From Turritopsis dohrnii (taxonomy: Eukaryota; Cnidaria; Hydrozoa; Anthoathecata; Oceaniidae), in the NCBI GenBank assembly GCA_027922465.2, contig BQMF02000271.1:527799-591798 (forward strand): a stretch of 64,000 nt of DNA, read 5' to 3'. The notes below the pieces were generated by a model. The model worked only from the letters and a program-made list of their open reading frames with translations, searched no databases and was not told where the DNA came from. Shown here one piece after another: positions 4,511 through 63,322 of this stretch; position 1 is the stretch's first letter, and every line of letters starts with the position of its first letter. Position numbers and translations under genes: made by a program.

Positions 4511-4516
4511 TCTTAT

Positions 4517-41416: not shown

Positions 41417-42965
41417 ATGGCTGAGAAGAAGTTGTACAGAGAAGAAAAGTTGATGCCTCCAGTATGGGACTCCAGTTATTAAAACTACAATGACTGGAGA
41501 TTCTGTGTTGAACTTTGGGATAGTGCATGTGATAGAGCAACAATTGCGAAAGCCGACAGGAGTTATTTGTTATTTGCAAAGCTGAAAGACATTAAGAGAG
41601 ATGGATTGGATGCTAAATTGATAACTGCAGCCCAATTGGGAAAAATTCATGTATTTGGAGACCAAGGAGTACATGAGATTTTGACAGTATTAGACGAACC
41701 ATTTAAAGAAGACCAGTTAGCACTGAAAAAGAAAGCATGGCATTCATTCATTAAAACCAAACGAAACCAGGAAGAGGAAGTTGACACGTATATCGATAAA
41801 TACGAGGAGAATGTTACTGATTTGAGAAAACTTGGTAGAGACTTAGATGACGAGACTTTAGCACTACAATTAATGGAGAATGCTTCCCTATCTGATGAAA
41901 AGCAAGCCAATATCTTTGATCTAGCGAAAAGATCAATGAGAAAGTATTTGGGTAGCAATAAGACCGGCAATGAAGCAATGTCAACGTCAATGTCAACAAT
42001 GAAGAAGCTATGTATATGTTTAGCTGTAGTCCACAAGGACGAAGAAGAGGAAGTAGTCGAGGCAGATCCTACGCGAGAAGTAGAGGAAATCACCGAGGTG
42101 GAAACAGCAACTTCCCTCCCTGCCAACGATCAAGCGCCCAACAACGAGCTAGATTCAATAGCAATGCGAGACCAAGAGGTGGAGCAAGGAAGAGAGAAAC
42201 TAATCCACTCGATGATGACGGGTACCCCATGACATGTAACATTTGCGGTTCAATTTTCCATTTTTCAGGCCGTAACGGTGCAGGTGGTCCTGAATCTTAC
42301 GAAAATCAACAACAAGTCAATGTTGCTGGAAACGAAAACCGGGAAGATGAGGAAGCAAACATTTGTGACAATCTGATAAAGCATGAAGAAGTATTTCATA
42401 TGAGAAGCAGTGAAGAAGCACTGCTAGACAGTTGTTGTTCTGCTAATGTGATGGGTAAACAGTGGAAAGACATTTTCATTGATGCTATGTCTGACAAGGA
42501 CAAAAGTGAAATAAGACATTTCAAAGGTGGCACTGTATTTCGTTTTGGTGGTGTGCCACCTGTAAGATCAACCGAGAAAATCGAATTCCCTTGCTACATA
42601 TTAGGGGAAAGAGCTACTATGATTGCTGATGTTGTTGATAGAGATATCCCACTCCTTATCTCGAAACCAGAAATGAAAGTCATGTGTTACAGACCACATC
42701 TACAGGACATTTTAAAGTCCCATTATGGAAAGATGAAGAAGTGAATGTTTGTATAGCTGAAATGGCTATGAACGAACAACGTAAAGTGCTGACCAAATTA
42801 CATAGACAATTCCGACATAATTCCGCTAAAGCAACTGAAGATCTGTTACGAAACGCAGGTCTTTTAACCAACGATGTAAGGAGAATCAACAAGGAAGTTG
42901 TTGCAGATTGTGACATTTGTAAACAATACAACAAAACATTTAAGGTATTTTTAGGATATTTTTAA
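41417..42965 (+). pseudogene. gag-protease-integrase polyprotein of an LTR retrotransposon
   Basis: The gag frame starts at ATG 41417 (MAEKKLYREEK), is interrupted by TAA at 41477-41479 and continues to 42232. A second frame, 42010-42744, holds an Arg/Gly-rich nucleocapsid tail, a zinc knuckle that has lost its last Cys (CNICGSIFHFSGRN) and a protease with the active-site triad altered to DSC (ALLDSCCSANV). A third frame, 42684-42965, carries the integrase HHCC domain (KLHRQFRHNSA, VADCDICKQYN). Two frameshifts, one stop and the damaged protease show that it is dead. Nothing of the integrase core or reverse transcriptase remains before the right-hand repeat at 43028. Confidence 0.75.
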
Positions 42966-51485: not shown

Positions 51486-51975
51486 TCTATATATACTAAT
51501 TCGCGTTGTGCATCCCACTTTTATTTTAGACAGTGTTTTGTTTTTGTTTATTTAATGGTCAAAATCTTCTTAATCGTGGTCATATAGCGGCAGTCCGACC
51601 ATTGAAGAAACCCTCAAAATGCCGATTTTTCCTCATTTGTTTTGACACGTGATCGCCGTTTCGCCGTTTTTATTGGTTGCTGAAATCGGAAAAACTATAG
51701 CGACGACATTCTTTGGAAAAGTAAACAAATTAAGTTTTTATTCATTGCGGTTACGCTCCAGAAACAATAAACAATAAGTATAGACAATTTACTTATCTAT
51801 TGATATTTATCAATCAAGTTTATTTATCAATTCAAGTTTATAATTTATCAAGTTTACCAGTTGTTAAAGTCAGTTTATCGAAAGCGAAAGAATTACGTAA
51901 CGAGGTAATAATATGTCTTTATTATTTTTAAAGATGGCAAACTCCACGAAGGTTTTTCCAACCCAACCGAAAAGA

Positions 51976-52005
51976 CTACCTACCTACCTGCCTACCTACC
52001 TATCT
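51976..52005 (+). repeat. (CTAC)n microsatellite
   Basis: About seven CTAC/CTGC/CTAT units in the leader of the autonomous Helitron. Confidence 0.7.
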
Positions 52006-52329
52006 AAGAACTTTTATATTTGCATTTATTCAGGTTCGTTTGCTCCTTGCTGTATAGTAGAGAGACAGAGTAGAAAGACAGAAAGTAGAAAGAAAGGTTT
52101 GTTAAAAACTTAGATGTACAACTGTAATTCCGTTACGTGTTACACGTCAATTTTTCGCTTTCTCCTATAGGTTGTTTAGCTATCTGTTTGGTGTTATTGC
52201 TCCTTCAGTGTCTGTTAGGTTGTAAAAAGAAAGGTTTGTTTTCGCTTCCACCAGGTTTTGTTCTGTGCATTGTTCACTGGGGGAATATATATTTCTTTTT
52301 CTTCTATCTATTGTTAGTGATTCTGTGCT

Positions 52330-55300
52330 GTGATGTTTAATATAAGAGGCACTAATATTATTCCTGGCTTCCAAGCAGTTTTTAGGAATGGTCAGTTTGT
52401 TTTGCAGCCACCTGATCAGCAACAAATGCGCTCTGTTATTCAGCGTAGGCATGCACACGAGGATGTAGGTGAAGCAAGGCGCAGACAGCTTCAGCCAAAT
52501 AATATCCAACCATTATCTGAAAATGAAAGACTTAGAATCAATGATGCTCAAAGGCGTGTTGAATATCGTCAAGATGAAGAGCCAGTTGAAGTATTTGTCA
52601 GACGGAATGAGAATGCACAACGTATGAGGGCTAGGCGTGATGTTCAACGGAATGCATTGTATCTTGCTGCTCGACAAGACCAATTGCCTGAGCTACACTA
52701 TCTTGGTGCCATGGACAAAGTCTGTCAGTTTTGTGGTGCCAAGATGTTCATTGATGAGACCAATTTTAAATGTTGTCACAATGGTAAAGTTCATTTAGGT
52801 AACATTTATTATCCTAATGATCTTAAAGAGCTTTTAGTAGGTGATTCTAATCAATCAAAGAACTTTCAAGAAAATATTCGAAAGTTCAATAGTTCGGTTG
52901 CTTTTGCTTCGATGGGTGCAAAATTGGTTGTGCCACAAGGTCGTGGTCCACCAGTTTTTCGTATTAATGGCCAGGTATGTCACCGAACAGGTAATTTGCA
53001 CCCGCCACCCGGTATTCCTCCTTCCTTTGGTCAATTATATATCTATGACGGTATGGATGCATTCAATGAGAGAATGGCAAGACCAGAAAATCAAGGATGT
53101 TATCCCGAAGTCATGCAAACTTTGCAAGACATTATTTTAAGGGAGAGTCCATATGCAGCTGCTTACAAACACATGGGTGAGGTAGAAGCGGAGGAAATTC
53201 AACTTGCAAATGAACAAAATCGTCGCCCATCTGAGGTAAATGGAAAATATGATGAAAATTAATAATTTAAAAATCTTTGAAGTGATACTTACAGATCTTT
53301 GCTATTGTTTTCCAGGTCAGAATGCATTTGAGAAGTGGTGGTGACCGGCGTCGATACAATCTGCCTCACCATGATGAAGTAGCTGCTGTTTTTGTTGGTG
53401 AAGATGGTGCACCACCATTGGCTCGAGACATCGTTGTTTACCCTCGAGATAGACCATTGCAGGATTTGCCTGTGAATTCGCCTAATCTCGATCCGATGGT
53501 GTATCCTGTATTTTTTCCAAGAGGAGAGTTGGGTTGGAGTTCCGACATCCCTCATGTAGCAGAATATGCAGCAGGCCAGCAACGTCGTACAACTATGCTG
53601 CAATATTATACTTATAGGTTTGCATTTAGAGATGCTTTTAGCCCCATATTAAAAGGTAAAAGATTACTTCAACAATATGCTGTAGATTGTTACTGCAAAG
53701 TTGAATCTGACCGTCTTAATTATATTCGTCAAAACCAGCGCAATTTCCGTGTTGAGCAATATCAAGGGCTCATTGATTATCTTGAAAATGTTGCAGAAAA
53801 TCGTGGCCTTCATGCAGGCAGACCGGTGATTCTTCCGTCTTCTTTTCAGGGTGGTCCTCGGGCCATGCAACAGAATTATCAAGATGCTATGGCTATGGTA
53901 ACTAAAATGGGAAAGCCAGATCTGTTTTGCACATTTACGTGCAATCCAAAATGGAAGGAGATCACGGAAAACTTAGATAATGAGCCTGCACATTATCGTC
54001 CGGACCTGATTACACGTGTTTTCAATTTGAAATTAAAAGCCCTTTTGGAAGATATAAATAAAAATGGTGTTTTGGGAAAAGCCATTTCTCATTTGTATGT
54101 TATTGAATTTCAGAAACGTTCTTTACCTCATGCTCATATTCTTATCCATTTAGCACAAGAGGACAAACTGCGTAATGCTGATGACATTGACAGCTTAATT
54201 TCTGCTGAAATACCAGATCCTGAACAGGAACCAGAACTTCATGATATCATCAAGTCATGTATGATTCATGGTCCCTGTGGGAATGCTAACCCTAATGCAG
54301 TTTGTGTGGGAGATGATGGCAACTGCACCAAGGATTTTCCAAAGCGATTTTGTGAAGCAACCCAAATGAATGCAAATGGGTATCCGCTCTATCGCAGACG
54401 TAACAATGGTCGTACAGTGAGGGTAAGAAATGTGGACTTAGATAATCAATGGGTAGTTCCATACTGTCCGTGGTTGTCCAAGAAGTATAATGCTCACATA
54501 AATTTGGAAGCATGTACCACGATCAGGAGCGTGAAATATCTTTTTAAATATGTTTACAAGGGACATGATCGTGCTAATGTGGAGATTAATGAACGTTTGG
54601 AACATGACGAAATAAAAACGTATCTGGACGCTCGATATGTCAGTGCACCTGAAGCGTTATGGAGAATTTTTGAATTTTCCATGCATGAAAAATCACATAC
54701 TATTAAGAGATTAGCTGTTCATTTACCTGATCGTCATCAAGTTTATTTTAGAGCTGGTGAAGAGGAGGCAGCTGCTGAAGGGGCATTGAATGATAGTCAC
54801 CTTACAGCATGGTTTAAGCTGAATGTAGAAGATCCTGATGCTCGGCAGTATCTTTACTCAAATATTCCGTATCATTATGTCTTTCATGGCAAAGAGAAAA
54901 AATGGAAGAAACGAAAAAAAACATTTAAGCCTATAGTCGCTCGGTTATACAATGCTCGACCATCAGAAGGAGAACGTTTTTTCCTACGAGTTTTGTTGTT
55001 GCATGTTGCAGGTGCTACGTCTTTCGAGTATTTGCGTACTTACGATGGAGTGGTTTACGACACATTCCGAGAAGCATGTATTGCCAGACATCTTCTGCAA
55101 GATGACGCAGAGTGGCACAATACATTGGAAGAGGCTTCAACATTTCAAATGCCCCGACAGCTTAGACAACTGTTTGTCACTATTTTGACTCACTGTGAGC
55201 CTTCCAATCCTCTGGAATTGTGGAATACATTCAAGGGGAATTTGTGCGAAGACTACCTTCGAACATTGGCTGTCGCTCAAGCAGAGCAAAGGGTTTTGGG

Positions 55301-56837
55301 TTATATTGATAATGTCCTGAGACAATTTGGTATGACTTTAACACAGTTTAATCTTCCTGAGTTGGTTCAGCAGGTTGCTCAGGAAGAAGATGATGTGAAT
55401 ATTTACATTGACAGGGCGGACCAGGTAAGGCCTCTGCTTAACGAACAGCAGTTAGTTGTGGCAGATGCGATTTTGTCTGCAGTTTCAAATGTGCGTAATG
55501 GTTTAGCACAAGTTGAAACTTTGTTTTATCTAGATGGACCAGCTGGCACAGGTAAGACTTTTACATACAATTATGTTATTGCAGCATGTAGAGCCAGAGG
55601 TTGGAAAGTTGCTACAGCTGCATATACAGGTATTGCAGCCACCTTACTGTCTGGTGGTTGTACATTGCATTCATTATTTCGTTTGCCTGTTCCTGTTTTA
55701 GAAAACAGTGTATGTAATATAACACCAGCATCGAAACATGCGGAATACCTTCGAAGTGTCGACCTGTTTCTGATTGATGAAGCGACTATGGTTTCTACGC
55801 ACATTTTCCATGCTGTAGACAGATTACTCAAGGATATTTGTGGAAGTGATGCACTTTTTGGTGGCAAGGTTCTTTTGTGGGGTGGAGATTTTCGTCAGTG
55901 TTTGCCGGTTGTGAAAAAGGCAAAGCCAACCGATGTTATTGAAGTTTGCTTGACCAGTTCTGTGTTATGGGCATCAGTGTCGAAATACTCTCTCACTGAA
56001 AATATGAGAGCCAGACCGGAAGAGCAAGAATTCTGTACTTGGCTGTTGCAACTTGGCAATGGTGAACTTCCAACGAAACAAAGCGAACCTGCTAAAGGTT
56101 CCATCGAAATTCCTGATTGTTGTGTTGTTCCTAAAGATACTTCGATTATATCTGTTATGTACGACGGACTGGAACCTCACGAATATGCCACCACAGCCAT
56201 TCTGACCCCGACAAATGACCAATCACTGATCATTAATAATGAGGTGTTGGACAGACTGCCTGGAGATGCAGTTTGCTATTACAGTGCTGATGAAGTGGCG
56301 TGTGACGATGAAGAAGAGCGGCAAAACTATCCGGTTGATTTTCTGAATAGTATTACACCATCCGGTATGCCTCCACATTGTTTGAAACTTAAAGCTGGGG
56401 CTATTATTATGCTTTTGAGGAATCTGAACATCAGGAAGGGTCTCTGCAATGGCACCCGCTTGATTGTTCGTGAATTGTCGCATAACTTTATTAAGGCTGA
56501 AGTTTTGACAGGGTCAGCAGTTGGGGAACTGATTTTTATACCTAGAGTACAATTGTCACCATCCGACACAGGTATGCCTTTTGTATTGAAGCGCAGACAA
56601 CTTCCAATTCGGTTGGCGTACTCTTTTACTATTAACAAAAGCCAAGGTCAAACGTTTGATAAAATTGGTTTGTTTTTGCAGAAACCGTGTTTTTCACATG
56701 GACAGTTGTATGTTGCCTGTTCAAGGGCAAAAGCATTTGGTAATGTTAAAATCAAAGTTGCCGGTACGGGTAAGCAAGGTTATATTAATGGAAAGATGTA
56801 TACTCAAAATGTTGTCTTTCCACAGGTGTTGCTGTGA
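52330..56837 (+). CDS. Helitron Rep-helicase transposase (two exons)
   Basis: Exon 1 (52330-53235, 302 codons) holds the N-terminal zinc-finger region typical of Helitron proteins: LGAMDKVCQFCGAKMF, then CCHNGKVHL. An 80-bp intron (53236-53315, GTAAAT to TTCCAG) joins it in frame to exon 2 (53316-56837), giving about 1475 residues. Numbered from the ATG at 53322, exon 2 contains the HUH nuclease motif LPHAHILIHL at about 268-277 and the two-tyrosine motif YLFKYVYKG near 408-416, which cut and join DNA strands. The PIF1-like helicase follows: GPAGTGKT (739), LIDEATMVS, WGGDFRQCLP, NMRA, SFTINKSQGQTFDK and YVACSRAKAFGN. No stop or frameshift was seen, and all key residues are present. No OTU or extra endonuclease domain is visible. 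The ATG at 52330 is the first in frame after stops in the leader; an upstream non-coding exon is possible. It would mobilise the related short copies in trans. Confidence 0.93.
53236..53315 (+). other. intron of the Rep-helicase gene
   Basis: Donor GAG|GTAAATGG, acceptor TTTTCCAG|GTCAGAATG. Removing it joins SE to VRMHLRSGG in the same frame and restores the usual Helitron collinearity before EVAAVFVG. Without splicing, exon 1 would stop at 53260-53262. Confidence 0.8.
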
Positions 56838-57352
56838 ATGTCTCGATTCACTTTAACATTTGAATTTGTTGTTGTGGCTTATTCTGTTATATAATAAGAT
56901 AGAGTAAACACTTACAGTGGTGGCTGCTGTTGACAGTTGTTTTGGCTTCTTCTGTAAGTTACGCCACTGTTGAGACATGTTGTGGCTTATTGTAGGAATA
57001 GCTTAAATACTTACAGTGGTGGCTGCTGTTGACAGTTGTTTTGGCTTCTTCTGTAAGTTACGCCACTGTTGAGACATGTTGTGGCTCATTAGTATACTGT
57101 AAACCATTGCTGTAGTCACTGCTGACAGTTGTTGTAGCACTGTAGTTTGGCAGCTTTGTACCTAATGAACAACCTGTAGATTTTGTTGTTTTTTTAGGTG
57201 GAGTACAAGTCCCATTGACTTACGTTCTCGCCGTGTACTCCGTTACCATGAATTGTGCATGAATTAAACTTTGTGGACAATTCATGAACTAAAAGTCAGG
57301 GCATGCTCCATTATCTCTCCATGATTGTAACTTTTGTTTTTTCTTCATTTAG
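56838..57352 (+). repeat. 3' flank of the transposase gene with a 99-bp tandem repeat
   Basis: About 56905-57003 and 57004-57100 are two nearly identical copies beginning ACACTTACAGTGGTGGCTGC and containing GGCTTCTTCTGTAAGTTACG; a decayed third copy follows to about 57150 (GTAGTCACTGCTGACAGTTG). An inverted pair GAATTGTGCATGAATT / GACAATTCATGAAC lies at 57250-57290. Confidence 0.75.
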
Positions 57353-59278
57353 TGAATTAATATAATAATGGTAACTCCCATGGATGTGTGCAACGGTAAA
57401 ACATTACTTTTTTAAACTTTCTGTAAGAGACATTAAAATACTAATCAAATTGATTTCATTTCAGAGGCAGAAGACAAATTTATTAGTGCAGGTGAAAATT
57501 ATTTTTAAATATCTGTAGTTTTTTCATTTCTACGGTTTTGTCTGGAATATATTTTTTTCTGTGAAAGTAGTCAAAATACTCAAAGCAAATTGATTTCATT
57601 TCAGAGCGAGAAAAAGAATTACTTGGTGAAGGTAAAAATTCTTTGTCAATAGCATTTTTTATCTGCTTTACATATCTCATCTTATATATTTTGGATTTGC
57701 ATGCTGCCATTATAATATCTTCTTTTCCTTTTTACAGATGGCAGTGAAAATATCGAATATAGTAAGGATTTTTATTGGAGTTTTCAATTAATTTTATCTT
57801 TTTTTTTCATCTGCTGAATCATGCTGTTTGAGTTACAGTGTATGACATTTTTGAATATATGCTACTTCCTGGACCATTTTTTCCTTAGATAATGGTTTAC
57901 GAACAGCTGATAGTAAGAATCAATAAAAATTTCAACGTTTCCTTTCTATATGTTATGACTTTTACAATCTACTTACTTATACTCCTTTCTCTATAATGTA
58001 TATTTGGACATTGTGTAATTATAACTTCGTGATTTCCTTCATTAGATACCAATAGCGTGCAGAGTATGGCAAAGAGTAAGGGTTTTAGTTGACATAACTT
58101 TGTAGTTTCAATTTCTTTTATCTTTCTTATGTATGACAGCTACTTTTTAAACCTTCTGTATTTAGATAATGCTTTACCAACAGCTGTTAGTAAAGTAAGA
58201 GTCAATACACATTAACATTTTCTTTCTATATGCTATTACTCACAATCTACTCCTTTGTTTATGTTTGGACCTATTCTATGCTGCAATAATAACTTGTCCT
58301 TTTCTTCATTAGATACCAATATCGCGCCGAATGTGGCAAAGGAGTAAGGGTTTGTATTAACATAACATTGTAGTTTTCAATTTCTTTTGTCTTTCTTTTA
58401 TATGACATCTACTTTTTAAACCTTCTTATTTAGATAAGGCTTTATCAGCAGCTGATAGTAAGAGTCAATACATGTCAATATATGTTTTCTTTCTATTTGT
58501 ATGACTTTCACAATCTATCTATTTATACTCCTTTGTCTATGATGTATGTTTGGACATTCTGTAATTATAACTTCATGATTTCCTTCATTAGATACCAATA
58601 ACATGCCGAATGTGGCAAAGAGTAAGGGTTTTAGTTGACATAACTTTGTAGTTTCCATTTCTTTTATCTTCCTTTTGTATGACAGCTACTTTTTAAACCT
58701 TTCTTTAGATAACGCTTTACCAACAGCTGATAGTAAGAGTCAATACACATTACATTTTCTTTTCATATGTTATGACTTTCACAATCTACTTATACATTTC
58801 TTTTAGCTGAACTACCATCATCATCCGCCAAACCTAATGGTAATATTATCTTACAATTCCAATGTTAACGTAACATGGGTGAAGAATTGTGTCTTAGGTA
58901 CATTTTTCAATTTTTTAGCTGCTGTTCTGGCAAATAAAAGGAAATGTAAGTTTCCCTTATATAGTATTTGATCAATTCTAATATAAGCCTTTTTGTTTCT
59001 TCACTAATAAAAATTATTTGCAACTATATATTGTAGATTCGTACAAAGACTTTCGGGAGTACCGGAAGACTCATCCCGGCCCCCGATCTAATGCGGCATT
59101 TAAAGCGTGGAAGAGATTTGGGGGTCGGGACCATCCCAAATTTATGTGGAAACATTCGAACAAAAAAACTCCACTACAAGGCACTACACTGGCAACTACA
59201 GTGCCAACTGCAGTGCCTGTAATTAACCAGTATAATTTTAACGCTTTTGCCCCATCAGTTTTCTATTCATTAAAGTGA
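57353..59278 (+). CDS. micro-exon gene carried by the autonomous Helitron, unknown function
   Basis: Fourteen exon candidates with AG/GT borders: 57353-57395 (ATG at 57368), 57465-57491, 57605-57631, 57738-57761, 57889-57912, 58046-58075, 58166-58189, 58313-58343, 58434-58457, 58592-58621, 58709-58732, 58807-58839, 58919-58945 and the last, 59037-59278, ending in TGA. Internal lengths are 27, 27, 24, 24, 30, 24, 31, 24, 30, 24, 33 and 27 nt; all but the 31-nt one are divisible by three. Every junction falls after the first base of a codon, so exons can be skipped or added without changing frame. Two sequences alternate: a 24-mer (NALPTAD-type) and a 30-mer (NTNSVQSMAK-type). The last exon encodes a basic tail of about 80 residues (DFREYRKTHPGPRSNAAFK, then WKRFGGRDHPKFMW) and is the best conserved-looking part. 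No domain was recognised. Introns are about 70-145 nt. Whether it is a Helitron gene or a captured host gene is open. Confidence 0.7.
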
Positions 59279-59368
59279 GTTCCTAGACCTTTGCGTGAGC
59301 ATTACAAAATTTTCATTTGACTTTCTTTACATAGACTCACTAAAATGAATAGAAAACTGATGAGGGTA
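59249..59368. repeat. inverted repeat across the stop codon of the micro-exon gene
   Basis: CCCCATCAGTTTTCTATTC, ATTAAAGTGAGT (59250-59280) is mirrored by GACTCACTAAAATGAATAG, AAAACTGATGAGGG (59335-59368). The arms are about 30 bp with few mismatches and a 55-nt loop. It could act in 3' processing of the transcript. Confidence 0.65.
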
Positions 59369-59889
59369 TTTTAGTTTATTTTAGTTTTGATGAGAATAAA
59401 GTTATTTTCTCCAAATTCATTTGCTCTATCATTACCTCTTTAATCACAATATCCTAACATTCTAGCTTTCACACTGTCAATTTACTAACCTAAGATTTGT
59501 GTTTAGTTATGTCTGTCACTCTATCAATTAGTGTTGCATTAGTGTCGAACAGAAATTTTAAAATTTTAAAAATATTCTTTCCCAGTCAGCACATTTATTA
59601 AAAAATATCTGCGTAGGAGTGCATTTCTAAAGAAATCTACACATTTTCACTGAGGATGCTCTCCATCACAGTGATTCTTTGATGATTTTGCACACTGGGT
59701 TACAGATATGATTAATTGAGTGTCATCTCATATGTATTTCTTCTTTCTTTTAAATGTTGGCATTTGTCATCGTAAATAAAGATTAACAGCTTAGTTTCCA
59801 ATCAGTTTATAAGGCTGCCTTAACATGATTATTTGTTCTCTGCATGCAGTAGATGATTATAGGTTTAGACACATTATAAAGATATTCAG
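59369..59889. other. no gene seen
   Basis: AT-rich spacer in the autonomous Helitron between the two spliced frames. Confidence 0.4.
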
Positions 59890-60050
59890 ATGTTTACAGT
59901 TAGTTTAGATGTGAAGGGAAACAATGGTGAGTCAAATTCAAACTCATCATTCAAGCTTATTTTGTTTCTACTCACAATTATTTTTTGATTACATTTACAG
60001 ATTGGCAGCAACAAATTATTGCAGACAACCTCCGTAATCATTGCTCATGA
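59890..60050 (+). CDS. small two-exon frame in the autonomous Helitron
   Basis: Exon candidate 59890-59926 (ATG at its first base, 12 codons plus one base, donor GTGAGT) and exon 60001-60050 (after TTTACAG, ending TGA 60048-60050) join in phase 1, the same phase as the micro-exon gene, into about 28 residues containing WQQQIIADNLRNH. The splice signals are good, but so short a frame could be chance. It may instead be alternative 3' exons of the micro-exon gene. Confidence 0.3.
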
Positions 60051-60867
60051 TATTTATTTCATCAAACAGTTTGTCTATGCGAAGTTCGAAATAATATCGT
60101 TATCGTTACCTCACCAACTTAGTTTACAGTTCGATGATGTATGAAATGGCTGTTTAAATGTCGTAGAAAATGGTTAATGCTTAATCAAAACGTTATTTAA
60201 TACACCTTTCTAATGAACATATTTTATTTTACTTTTGTATTGCAATAAGTAATAATTTATAAAATATATGCCTTTGCTAACTACAACAGACATGCATTCT
60301 TTATTAGCACCTGTAAAAACCTTTGGATGCAGGTCTTTTTGAACAGGGTTTTTGAAAAAGTTTTGGTGGGATGTGTGATACTAAGATATTATATATGTTA
60401 TCTTATGGTTATTAAATCTGAATTATTTATGGGAATTTCTGTTGCTGTTCTACGAAACCTGAATCTTTTGTATTATTGTACCACTCATTTTACCTCAGAC
60501 ATTGCCAGAACCTTATTTTCATGGACTTTTAATATATTCTTTTAGGTTAATATTATAATAAGATGGTTGCAGTGGAATGTCATGGTTTAAATCATGATGT
60601 TGGTTTTGTTGGTGAAGATTATTATATTCATTGAAAGAATTTGTTATTCTGATATTGCATTAGTGGAAAGAATCATCACTGGAAGGTATCAATTTCTTCA
60701 TCATTGTAGTTTTGTATATTTAAGAATAAGGTGTAGTTATAAAAAGCTACTTTGTATACCTAAGTATAAAGTTTGGTTCTTTCCAGAAATTCTTATTATA
60801 CTACTTTTACTTTGCTACTTTTATTTTTCGTGAACTGGACGCATACTGAACATGGGTGGCGAGCGAC
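60051..60867. other. 3' region of the autonomous Helitron, no gene seen
   Basis: Contains stretches distantly shared with the non-autonomous copies (GAAAGAATCATCACTGGAAG, GTATCAATTTCTTCATCATT) and the subterminal phrase CATACTGAACATGGGTGGCG that precedes the terminal hairpin. Confidence 0.6.
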
Positions 60868-60884
60868 GCCGCCTTGGCGGCTAG
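60868..60884 (+). terminator. 3' hairpin and CTAG of the autonomous Helitron
   Basis: GCCGCC (60868-60873), TT, GGCGGC (60876-60881), with CTAG at 60881-60884 overlapping the last stem base. The same end closes the family B copies at 18716, 19509 and 25583. It differs from the AT-rich GGTAAAAA hairpin used by the longer non-autonomous copies. Confidence 0.82.
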
Positions 60885-63322
60885 TCTTATTATAATAATC
60901 CGCGTTGTGCACCACTTTTATTTTAGAGAGTGATATATTTGTTTTTTTTTCACGGTCAAATCCTTCTTATTTTTTCCCTTTTCGTCGTAAAACCACGCCA
61001 AAGCGAGAGTGATTTTTTTGATTTTTCGCGATTAGTATATGCTCCTCCGTTTTGTTATTTTTGGCTTGCGCAGTGGAAATCAGCCGAAAAACGTCTTTGG
61101 AGGAGTGCGAGCAATGCAATGTTAATCGTTCGAAATTTGTCAACGATCATTTCGTGAGCAAGAAACTTCGCGAAGAAGACGTGTTTCTTTTTGTATACGA
61201 ATATTTTGATTTAAATTTGATTGTTTTAGGCAGCAAATCGACGAAAGAACTGATGAAGAAACACAGGTTTGTATGCACGAAGGTATTGTTATTATTATAA
61301 AACGTTTTATTATCGTTTGTTTACAATGAAAAATCATATTTAGATATACAGAAGAAGTGCAGTGAAGTTTTTAAAAATTAGCTGCAGAAAGATCGAACGA
61401 AACAAAAGGTATTATTATAAAACTTTTATACAGAAGAAGTGCAGTGAGTTTTTAAAAATTGGCTGTGCAGAACGATAAGACTTTTATTGTTTAATATTTT
61501 AGATTAATAAAAGAACAGGTTTTTAAATGTTTGTTTACGTTTTAGTTATCAAATATCGCTATACAGAAGAAAGTGCAGTGGAGAAATGCAGTTTCATGTT
61601 TATTTACACAGTAAGGAATGGTTTTAATTTGAATTTGATGAGTTTTGAAAGATTAATTGATTTAGCTTTGAGTGGATGTCTCAGTTATTCTGTCGTTTAG
61701 ATGTGTATATGCTGCTGGATGAAAAGGAAGCCGAGAGAAATTTGTTTTGGTAACGCGCGCTATTATTACATTAAAAATGGTCCTACAGCTATGAATGTTT
61801 TTATTTCTCATGACGCTGTGGAAGTGGGGAATGTGTTATGCTGTCTGATTGTATCTATTGTATCTAATTTATATCGATGCTTGATGCTTTTGTCTGCCTG
61901 CCAAAAAGTACAAAATCTACTGGAAAATACAGAAAGTTTAGCAGTTTTTCCAAACGAAGAGAGCAGTTTTATGTATTTCACTTAAAAAAATGGTAGCGAA
62001 AGTGTTTTTATAATACCTATGTATGTTTGTGCTGGAAAGTAAATAAAGTATTAGTAATTTGTTTACAGGTATGAATATAGAAGTAAAGAGTTTAGAAGTG
62101 TTTGAAAATGTCTACAGAAGATGATCAATGCTGTTTAGTTTACTAACATGTGAATTGGCAGTGAAAGGTATCCCATTTTGTTTGAAGTTCAGCTAAAGTT
62201 AAAATAGTATAAATCTATTTAGTTATAACACAGTTGGTATGCTGGATAAAGAGAATAAAGGGTTGTTTAACTGTTGTGAATTAGCCAGAGGAGATTTTAA
62301 CTCAGATTAAAAATGTGGTTGTTTTCAATTTTTTATAAACTCTTTAGATATATAAATTCTGTCATTACGTTTGTGTTTTTAATTATTATTCATAAGGTAG
62401 ATGTGAATGGATTATGTATTTAAGAAGTTCATTAGTTATTACTGTGCAATGAAATGTTTATGCATTATTTTGTGTTATGGTAATCGTTTACGTACCTGGG
62501 TATATAAGTTTGGCATGATTTTATGATTTTATTTGTGACTTTTTATCTTCTGGGTAAATTTTTGTTTTAAGGATAAATGCGTAGTTGAATTTCACTTTTT
62601 GTTGTTGTTGTTTATTTCAATATTCTTATAGCATGATTAGGTTTTCGGTATTACAGTATTACAATTACTATTACGCTGTTTTGTTGTTTTGAGTTATTGT
62701 TTTTAGGATAAATGCGTAGTTGAATTGCATTTTTTTGTTGTTGTTGTTGTTGTTGTTTATTTCAATATTCTTATAGCATGATTAGGTTTTCGGTATTACA
62801 ATTCAAGTATCAATTTTTTAGGTAATAATAAAAAAAAGCATAAAGAAATGAAACTCATGGTTTTAATCATGACGTTGATGGTTTTGGGAAGAACAGACTA
62901 TATATCATTTCAAAAATTCATTAATGGTTGCTGTATAATGTAACTTCCACACGAAAGAAACACAGTTGGAAGGTATCAATTTGTTTTCAATTCACATTTT
63001 GTAATGTTATTCAATGTTTGGTTTCGTATGTCTGGGTAAACAGTTCTGTGTTATATATTGCCATTTTTTTTACATTAAAGTTGCTTCTCTTCTGCGTATA
63101 AATATATTATTCTGAGCCATGTTGCTATTTGTTTCTGTTTTTAATCTTCTGAATGTAATAACAAATTAATGCCTGAAAAGAAACTTTTACACGAGTTAAA
63201 TTCTGTGACACAACGCATACTGAACATGGGTGGCGAGTGACGCGTACGTACCACAGAATGACAGATTTGACCTAATGTTTTCAAAGTTAAGTTCGGTAAA
63301 AAGTTTTTACCCGGGATACTAG
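60885..63322 (+). mobile_element. array member 7: non-autonomous Helitron, sister of H1
   Basis: 2438 bp; starts TCTTATTATAATAATCCGCG and ends CCCGGGATACTAG (63319-63322). Nearly identical to 4511-6767 throughout, apart from small indels and a local duplication in which GGATAAATGCGTAGTTGAAT to CGGTATTACA occurs twice (about 62570-62656 and 62706-62799). The subterminal phrase is shortened to GGTGGCGAGTGACGCGTACG. Confidence 0.88.

Follow-up and report, generated by a model that had tools for sequence, protein, structure and literature searches.

A predicted chain of micro-exons as candidate second gene of a Helitron lineage in Turritopsis dohrnii

We analysed a predicted gene of 14 exons (positions 57353–59278, GT–AG borders, 199 amino acids) in a stretch of 64,000 nucleotides of the genome of the hydrozoan Turritopsis dohrnii, hereafter the window. 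With a probability that we put at about 0.58, it is the second gene of a Helitron lineage, made of mostly frame-neutral micro-exons and a conserved last exon, and encodes a protein predicted to be nuclear, to bind DNA and to serve the element. This element-serving reading is supported by frame-neutral exon chains in four distant relatives, by the frame kept among close copies, by selection on the last exon and by the constant place of the gene behind the helicase. Micro-exon genes of such design are discussed mostly as sources of secreted proteins in parasitic flatworms; here one lies in a hydrozoan transposon and adds an orphan accessory gene to the Helitrons, of which, to our knowledge, few second genes are known. 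The open literature contained no description of a Helitron-borne micro-exon gene, including the accessible parts of two papers that mention both subjects (PMC8293314, PMC6642603); most subscription papers were outside the scope of this search.

A predicted 14-exon gene in an autonomous Helitron

The host element is an autonomous Helitron of 9,399 bp (51486..60884, plus strand). Its class follows from Rep (Helitron_like_N, PF14214, 5.6e-58) and a PIF1-type helicase (PF05970, 3e-53) encoded in one gene, and from its termini, a 5' TC and a 3' CTAG (CTRR) with a short 3' hairpin read by eye. The element starts with TCTATATATACTAATTCGC and ends with ...GCCGCCTTGGCGGCTAG. It lies head to tail between other Helitrons: its TC start abuts the CTAG of the preceding copy, and the 5' terminus of the next Helitron, at 60885, stands directly behind the CTAG (GCCGCCTTGGCGGCTAG) at 60884. 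The 3' end was placed at 60884 from this junction and from a similar one in a distant relative, L080.

The Rep-helicase gene has a first coding exon (52333..53235, plus strand), recognised from its sequence and open frame, with the ATG at 52333, and a main exon (53316..56837, plus strand), in which Pif1_2B (1.4e-20) was matched in addition to the two families above; the splice join 53235/53316 is predicted, by eye, to be in frame. A protein search with Rep gave a first match of 65% identity and a second, from a pseudoscorpion entry, of 55%; the named relatives near the top were mostly hydrozoan (Hydractinia, Clytia and Hydra, 55–63% identical).

Within the Helitron, the predicted exon chain comes after the helicase stop (56837) and before the 3' end. 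Ahead of it lies a non-coding tandem repeat (56905..57090, plus strand) with 1.9 copies of a 99-bp unit, found by a tandem-repeat search; a 93-bp array occupies the corresponding place in two distant relatives, with 4.0 copies in L079 and 3.1 in L082. Immediately upstream of the gene, a conserved non-coding stretch (57150..57363, plus strand) runs into the leader of exon 1. It is 93% identical in L079, 92% in L080 and 86% in L082 (217–221 aligned columns), whereas the difference from L079 and L080 is about 20–53% over most of the gene body; in L081 just two pieces, of 34 and 30 bp, match the stretch. Two short inverted repeats were seen by eye at 57199–57300, GGAGTAC..GTACTCC and CATGAATTGT..ACAATTCATG, and may belong to a promoter or a structured element. 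An Rfam scan of the window gave no match.

All 14 exon candidates with AG/GT borders that had been proposed from the sequence alone were found on the plus strand. Exon 1 (57353..57395), which measures 43 nt by a splice-matrix scan trained on the window's other splice sites, consists of a 15-nt leader and 28 coding nt that begin with the ATG at 57368. Exons 2 (57465..57491) and 3 (57605..57631), both of 27 nt, are duplicates of each other, and are followed by exon 4 (57738..57761, 24 nt). Two types then alternate. Type A comprises exons 5 (57889..57912), 9 (58434..58457) and 11 (58709..58732), of 24 nt each, and exon 7 (58166..58194), which measures 29 nt with its downstream donor or 24 nt with an upstream donor (to 58189). 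Type B comprises exons 6 (58046..58075) and 10 (58592..58621), of 30 nt each, and exon 8 (58313..58343), of 31 nt. Exons 12 (58807..58839, 33 nt) and 13 (58919..58945, 27 nt) complete the chain, and exon 14 (59037..59278) encodes a conserved basic C-terminal domain, a variable linker, a conserved FNAFAPSVF tail and the stop. Introns are 69–134 nt long. Exons 5, 7, 9 and 11, and likewise exons 6, 8 and 10, are copies within a 268-bp tandem repeat of 3.3 copies.

As first drawn, 11 of the 12 internal exons are indeed divisible by three (27, 27, 24, 24, 30, 24, 31, 24, 30, 24, 33 and 27 nt for exons 2–13). The claim that they join into one frame fails in that drawing, where exon 7 of 24 nt and exon 8 of 31 nt shift the frame and a stop follows exon 8; it holds if the donor of exon 7 lies 5 nt downstream or if exon 8 is skipped. 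Relative to its sister exons, exon 7 carries a 5-nt insertion at the donor. With 29 and 31 nt (60 nt together), the frame is open to the end and gives 199 amino acids; the border between exons 7 and 8 is then in phase 0, an exception to the supposed phase 1 of every border. Skipping of exon 8 in silico also leaves an open frame, of 187 amino acids. The picture of a string of tiny symmetric exons stands for most of the chain, and not as one of twelve independent pieces, since the repeat copies and duplicates make the independent exons fewer than they appear. At the level of DNA, the prediction of a string of micro-exons, most of them symmetric, in an autonomous Helitron is thus supported, with the 29/31-nt pair as the exception.

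In both genes the distance from a TTAG acceptor to the ATG is exactly 15 nt (for the Rep-helicase gene, an acceptor-like TTAG at 52314–52317); the positions directly after the acceptors are 52318 and 57353. A leader intron is possible at these two positions, as is spliced-leader trans-splicing, which occurs in hydrozoans.

Frame, drift and selection among close copies

We searched the genome (436 Mb, 891 contigs) with the DNA of the window gene and obtained 63 pieces at 40 loci, 83–100% identical (the best 40 of 247 candidates). The window region and 39 other copies were aligned as 40 rows. Exon 11 aside, 36 of the 40 rows had no complete loss of any exon; the other four miss whole exons besides exon 11. 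The copies were not randomly broken out of phase: the frame over exons 1–13 was kept in 33 of these 36 rows, and lost in L018, L019 and L024. The odd lengths were kept as well, 29 nt for exon 7 in 40 of 40 aligned rows and 31 nt for exon 8 in 39 of 40. Exon 11 is missing in 23 of the 40 rows, among them L045, which ends ahead of this exon, and exon 12 has 30 instead of 33 nt in 21; both changes are frame-neutral. Across copies, micro-exon coding blocks measure 18–43 nt, exon 1 included. After splicing in silico, 25 of the 40 rows have an open frame as far as the conserved end, and in 18 of these all sites are intact; not counted were L012 and L030, whose last exons were listed with those of identical copies, and L045, which has no last exon. 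In L025, a 5'-terminal Helitron fragment lies inside exon 10. Exon content, therefore, varies between element copies at the DNA level, by gain and loss without a break of frame.

Substitutions in the micro-exons gave a different picture from lengths. Columns varying in at least two copies made up 44 of 331 in micro-exons, equal to introns (148 of 1,140), without codon-position bias, so that the micro-exon amino acids are without measurable selection; constraint on them, which we had considered, was not seen. In contrast, indels of up to 45 nt lying wholly inside one compartment numbered 4 in 410 micro-exon columns and 54 in 1,421 intron columns. The sole micro-exon indel common to several copies is of 3 nt; the other three occur in one copy each, and two of them (1 and 4 nt) break the frame. 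Splice GT/AG together with donor positions +3 to +5 varied less than introns (4 of 84 versus 148 of 1,140 columns, p=0.025); for the splice dinucleotides alone the difference was not significant (p=0.076). Among close copies, then, the arm encoded by the micro-exons changes in sequence at about the rate of introns, but most copies preserve frame and exon lengths, the pattern expected if modularity itself is useful.

A dN/dS-type comparison of the last exon, suggested along with the original prediction, gave an excess of silent over replacement changes. Over its conserved parts (48 codons, uncorrected), pN/pS was 0.00–0.34 between closer subfamilies and 0.29 pooled over all pairs; against the two most distant lineages it was 0.41–0.93, and between those two 0.31. 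Intact last exons numbered 35 of 44 distinct ones. Judged from these sequence comparisons, the last exon is under purifying selection. It is very improbable, then, that the chain is a product of chance or a relic, a series of exon-like pieces with no translated product: such pieces would drift as the micro-exon amino acids do, at the intron rate, but selection on the last exon, the frame kept in most copies and the multiples of three in the chains of distant lineages (below) all argue against it.

Silent sites of the last exon and of the helicase were compared in 15 copies, each against the window. In L036, 7.0 of 32 silent sites had changed in the last exon and 3.0 of 203 in the helicase (p=4.2e-5); in L079 the figures were 12.2 of 33 and 4.0 of 45 (p=0.004). 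Seven of the other 13 copies had such a silent excess in the last exon at p<0.05, without correction for multiple tests, and L028 and L035 did not; in three close copies of the remainder the last exon is free of silent changes, and L032 has no intact one. In several copies, then, this gene outpaces the replication gene, be it by divergence or by exchange. Positive selection was set aside as the cause of the fast change of the last exon, because its silent sites are also more diverged than those of the helicase. For the same reason, these sequences agree better with gene modules having been exchanged among elements, or with an old divergence combined with a homogenised helicase.

Distant relatives and the place behind the helicase

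A protein search with the last exon (best 150 of 653 candidates, down to 44% identity) led to four distant relatives in the same genome, L079, L080, L081 and L082, with last exons 45–54% identical. Each is predicted to have a chain of micro-exons ahead of the last exon. Drawn by eye with the frame in mind, the internal exons (eight in L079, eight in L080, nine in L081 and seven in L082; 18–36 nt) are all multiples of three. One micro-exon of L082 contains a stop, and this copy looks decayed. The middle exons differ between lineages in number and sequence.

The four loci were also scanned blind to frame, using a splice matrix built from the window's own sites only. Multiples of three made up 19 of 20 exons at the strict setting, 25 of 29 at the middle and 28 of 32 at the loose setting (binomial p of 1.2e-8, 6e-9 and 3.3e-10, values that are optimistic since some exons are homologous between lineages). 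At the strict setting L079 contributed 5 of 5 and L080 7 of 8. At every setting, each chain scored higher than any of 100 shuffled versions of its sequence, although L081 was barely ahead at the loosest (112.2 versus 108.2), where shuffles reached equal exon numbers (7–9). With the same matrix, multiples of three amounted to 9 of 12 in the window, on whose sites it was trained, 6 of 7 in L061, 3 of 3 in L065, 4 of 6 in L067 and 9 of 11 in L069. A scan with a generic splice consensus had been weak (5 of 8 in the window and 3 of 3 each in L079 and L080) and was replaced by this matrix.

We analysed the place of the gene relative to the helicase, using the last 150 amino acids of the helicase as query; the best 150 of 1,659 candidates fell into two groups. 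Among the matches listed, a last-exon match followed at least 125 of the 150 scored helicase matches, 1.4–2.9 kb downstream. In the first group it lay on the same strand less than 4 kb downstream in at least 60 of 76 (1.57–2.47 kb) and in the second it lay downstream in at least 65 of 74 (1.43–2.94 kb), again among the matches listed; the second group was searched with the last exon of L081 (best 150 of 755 candidates), with one place added from the search with the window's last exon. As a control, last-exon matches upstream or on the opposite strand were found for 0 of 76 and 1 of 74. Helicase matches with no listed last exon downstream numbered 16 of 76 and 9 of 74. In the reverse direction, a listed helicase lay within 4 kb upstream of 67 of the 150 listed last-exon matches, and some of the other 83 have no helicase. 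Among the close copies, coding sequence for at least 100 amino acids of helicase stood just upstream in 24 of the 30 loci L009–L038. A last-exon match behind most scored helicases indicates that this Helitron lineage regularly carries the gene as its second one, so that the cargo of the original prediction is not supported.

Captured fragments in Helitrons are single copies, while the extra gene described here is under selection and stands behind most scored helicases of its lineage. Helitrons with captured gene fragments, as in maize and Pleurotus, do resemble the present one in carrying non-Rep exons. It is unlikely that the gene is a host micro-exon gene captured and multiplied by the Helitron as a source of protein variants for the host, a reading close to that of the original prediction. 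Helitrons do capture genes (accessible text of PMC4289320), the exon architecture recalls the micro-exon genes (MEGs) of schistosomes as portrayed in the available part of PMC10526429, and 83 of the 150 listed last-exon matches lack a listed helicase within 4 kb upstream. Against it stand the matches behind 125 of 150 scored helicases, among those listed, which include deeply split sublineages, as well as the lack of a hydrophobic N-terminus and the lack of a similar protein in protein searches (both described below).

The constant place behind the helicase would also suit a helper in transposition, with a role like that of the RPA gene of plant Helitrons: the basic domain of the product may hold the displaced single strand, or the ends of the element, for the Rep-helicase. 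In the accessible text of PMC4683698, the second gene of plant Helitrons (Mothra and a sister family) is an RPA-like single-strand binder that, as here, lies beside Rep-helicase and is kept after loss of the helicase, and a rice Mothra mother element is described with RPA and without RepHel. Helicase-less gene copies in tandem were found here too: G000:C28 176959–185713 holds three, with a period of 3,383 bp, and G000:C11 1465896–1473939 holds three with a period of 3,902 bp. In this second array a helicase precedes the first copy, and the next copy, L080, is without helicase, its gene standing a short way behind a Helitron junction. The window gene differs from the plant RPA genes in its micro-exon architecture and in having no match to RPA or any other relevant Pfam family, and in a plain single-strand binder one would not expect an arm that drifts freely. 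By analogy, we tentatively regard a helper in transposition as a possible role.

Copies of the gene in tandem were also noted at G000:C257 196298–233441, with a period of about 9.2 kb.

The predicted protein, its possible roles and neighbouring elements

The predicted proteins of the window, L079, L080 and L081 have 153–199 amino acids. Their N-terminal arm, encoded by the micro-exons, is 80–119 amino acids long, acidic to neutral (pI 4.1–6.3) and prone to disorder (77–85% disorder-promoting residues), and the C-terminal part, encoded by the last exon, is basic (pI 10.4–10.7). Eight aligned last exons share the invariant residues SYxxFxxYRxxHPGPRSxxAFxxWxRxGGRDHPxFxW, followed by a free linker and a FAPSVF tail, which is present in L082 and absent in L081. 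A single-sequence structure model of the window's last exon placed three helices within residues 2–38 at low confidence (mean pLDDT 59.5), and a fold comparison of this model with PDB gave no match. DNA binding by the basic domain is predicted from its charge and this low-confidence model.

Searches for relatives of the protein found none outside this genome. No match at E≤10 was obtained with the spliced protein, and none at E≤1 with an aligned set of five spliced proteins, for which the 7,990 candidates sharing most words were scored; neither the last exon nor the five spliced proteins matched any Pfam family at E≤1, RPA and OB-fold included; and the last-exon alignment had no relative in viral contigs or prokaryotic genome contigs. 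A profile search of PDB sequences gave three matches to tyrosyl-DNA phosphodiesterase 2, rejected as chance-level (E 0.78–0.82).

The expectation of a secreted, MEG-like product was not borne out by the four predicted proteins, which have no hydrophobic N-terminus by simple hydropathy (maximum 9-residue hydropathy in the first 30 residues ≤0.60), nor by the Pfam search. Since the signal peptide of MEGs is missing here, we do not class the window gene as a MEG. In the accessible parts of PMC10526429 and PMC8293314, schistosome MEGs have, like the window gene, many short symmetric exons per gene, mostly multiples of three with few exceptions; introns of MEGs reach about 5 kb (same part of PMC10526429), against the 69–134 nt found here. 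Unlike MEGs, the window gene is transposon-borne and multiplied, and no similar protein was found for it. Its many copies in one genome are natural replicates, with which the purpose of symmetric micro-exons becomes testable.

Returning to the reading of an element-serving second gene, we propose that the protein would serve the transposon itself, its basic C-terminal domain binding the element's own DNA, for example the adjacent tandem repeats and the conserved stretch. The arm may tune partners or specificity, and exon skipping, if real, may vary the arm and would add protein variety. The protein might help in transposition or in lifting silencing, like VANC of Arabidopsis; by analogy, these would be the two best sub-readings. 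Also conceivable, though doubtful, is an exon-shuffling transposon lineage in which each copy encodes a fixed basic DNA-binding domain with an arm put together from frame-neutral, exchangeable micro-exons; duplication, loss, exchange between copies and splicing would all diversify the arm, so as to outpace host silencing.

VANC belongs to VANDAL elements, which are MULEs, another transposon class than Helitrons. An anti-silencing factor of the VANC type would putatively bind the repeats beside the gene and keep the Helitron unsilenced, protein and repeats changing together; we consider this a speculative reading, drawn by analogy. As far as the accessible text of PMC5735166 goes, VANC is, like the present gene, a transposon accessory gene with conserved and variable parts in an element with non-coding tandem repeats. 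Its variable parts and exon–intron structure are tied to tandem repeats, and its target repeats likewise go with tandem duplication; the available parts of PMC5735166 and PMC10398659 describe VANC proteins and their targets in terms similar to those that fit the window gene, which combines a conserved domain with a variable region containing tandem duplicates, in an element whose non-coding tandem repeats vary in number. The silent divergence of the last exon, above that of the helicase in several copies, points the same way. By eye, however, lineages with about 50% identity between their last exons have similar-looking repeat units, and the helicase-less L080 has no match to the repeat core. 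Moreover, binding and anti-silencing are shown for VANC, whereas here they are putative; and the accessible part of PMC5735166 mentions no micro-exon chain, which the window gene is predicted to have.

At the 3' end of the gene, a 31-bp inverted repeat (90%; 59250–59280 and 59335–59365) lies with one arm over the last exon's end and with the other in the flank downstream; by eye it is not evident in L079. Elsewhere in the window, an open frame at 41483–42229 has a weak match to a copia-type gag (PF14223, 25.4 bits, under the curated cut-off). Helitrons characteristically insert between A and T and make no target-site duplication. Sixteen distinct Helitron 5' junctions, viewed on their 5' side only, were preceded by A in ten cases and directly by a neighbour's CTAG in six, and two of the ten (45217 of the window and L080) possibly mark the ends of neighbours. 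Ten 5' termini lie in the window, at 4511, 27827, 44117, 44679, 45217, 47357, 49826, 51486, 60885 and 63323; six of them are head to tail (CTAG|TC), and the spacing suggests that several of these Helitrons are short non-autonomous copies.
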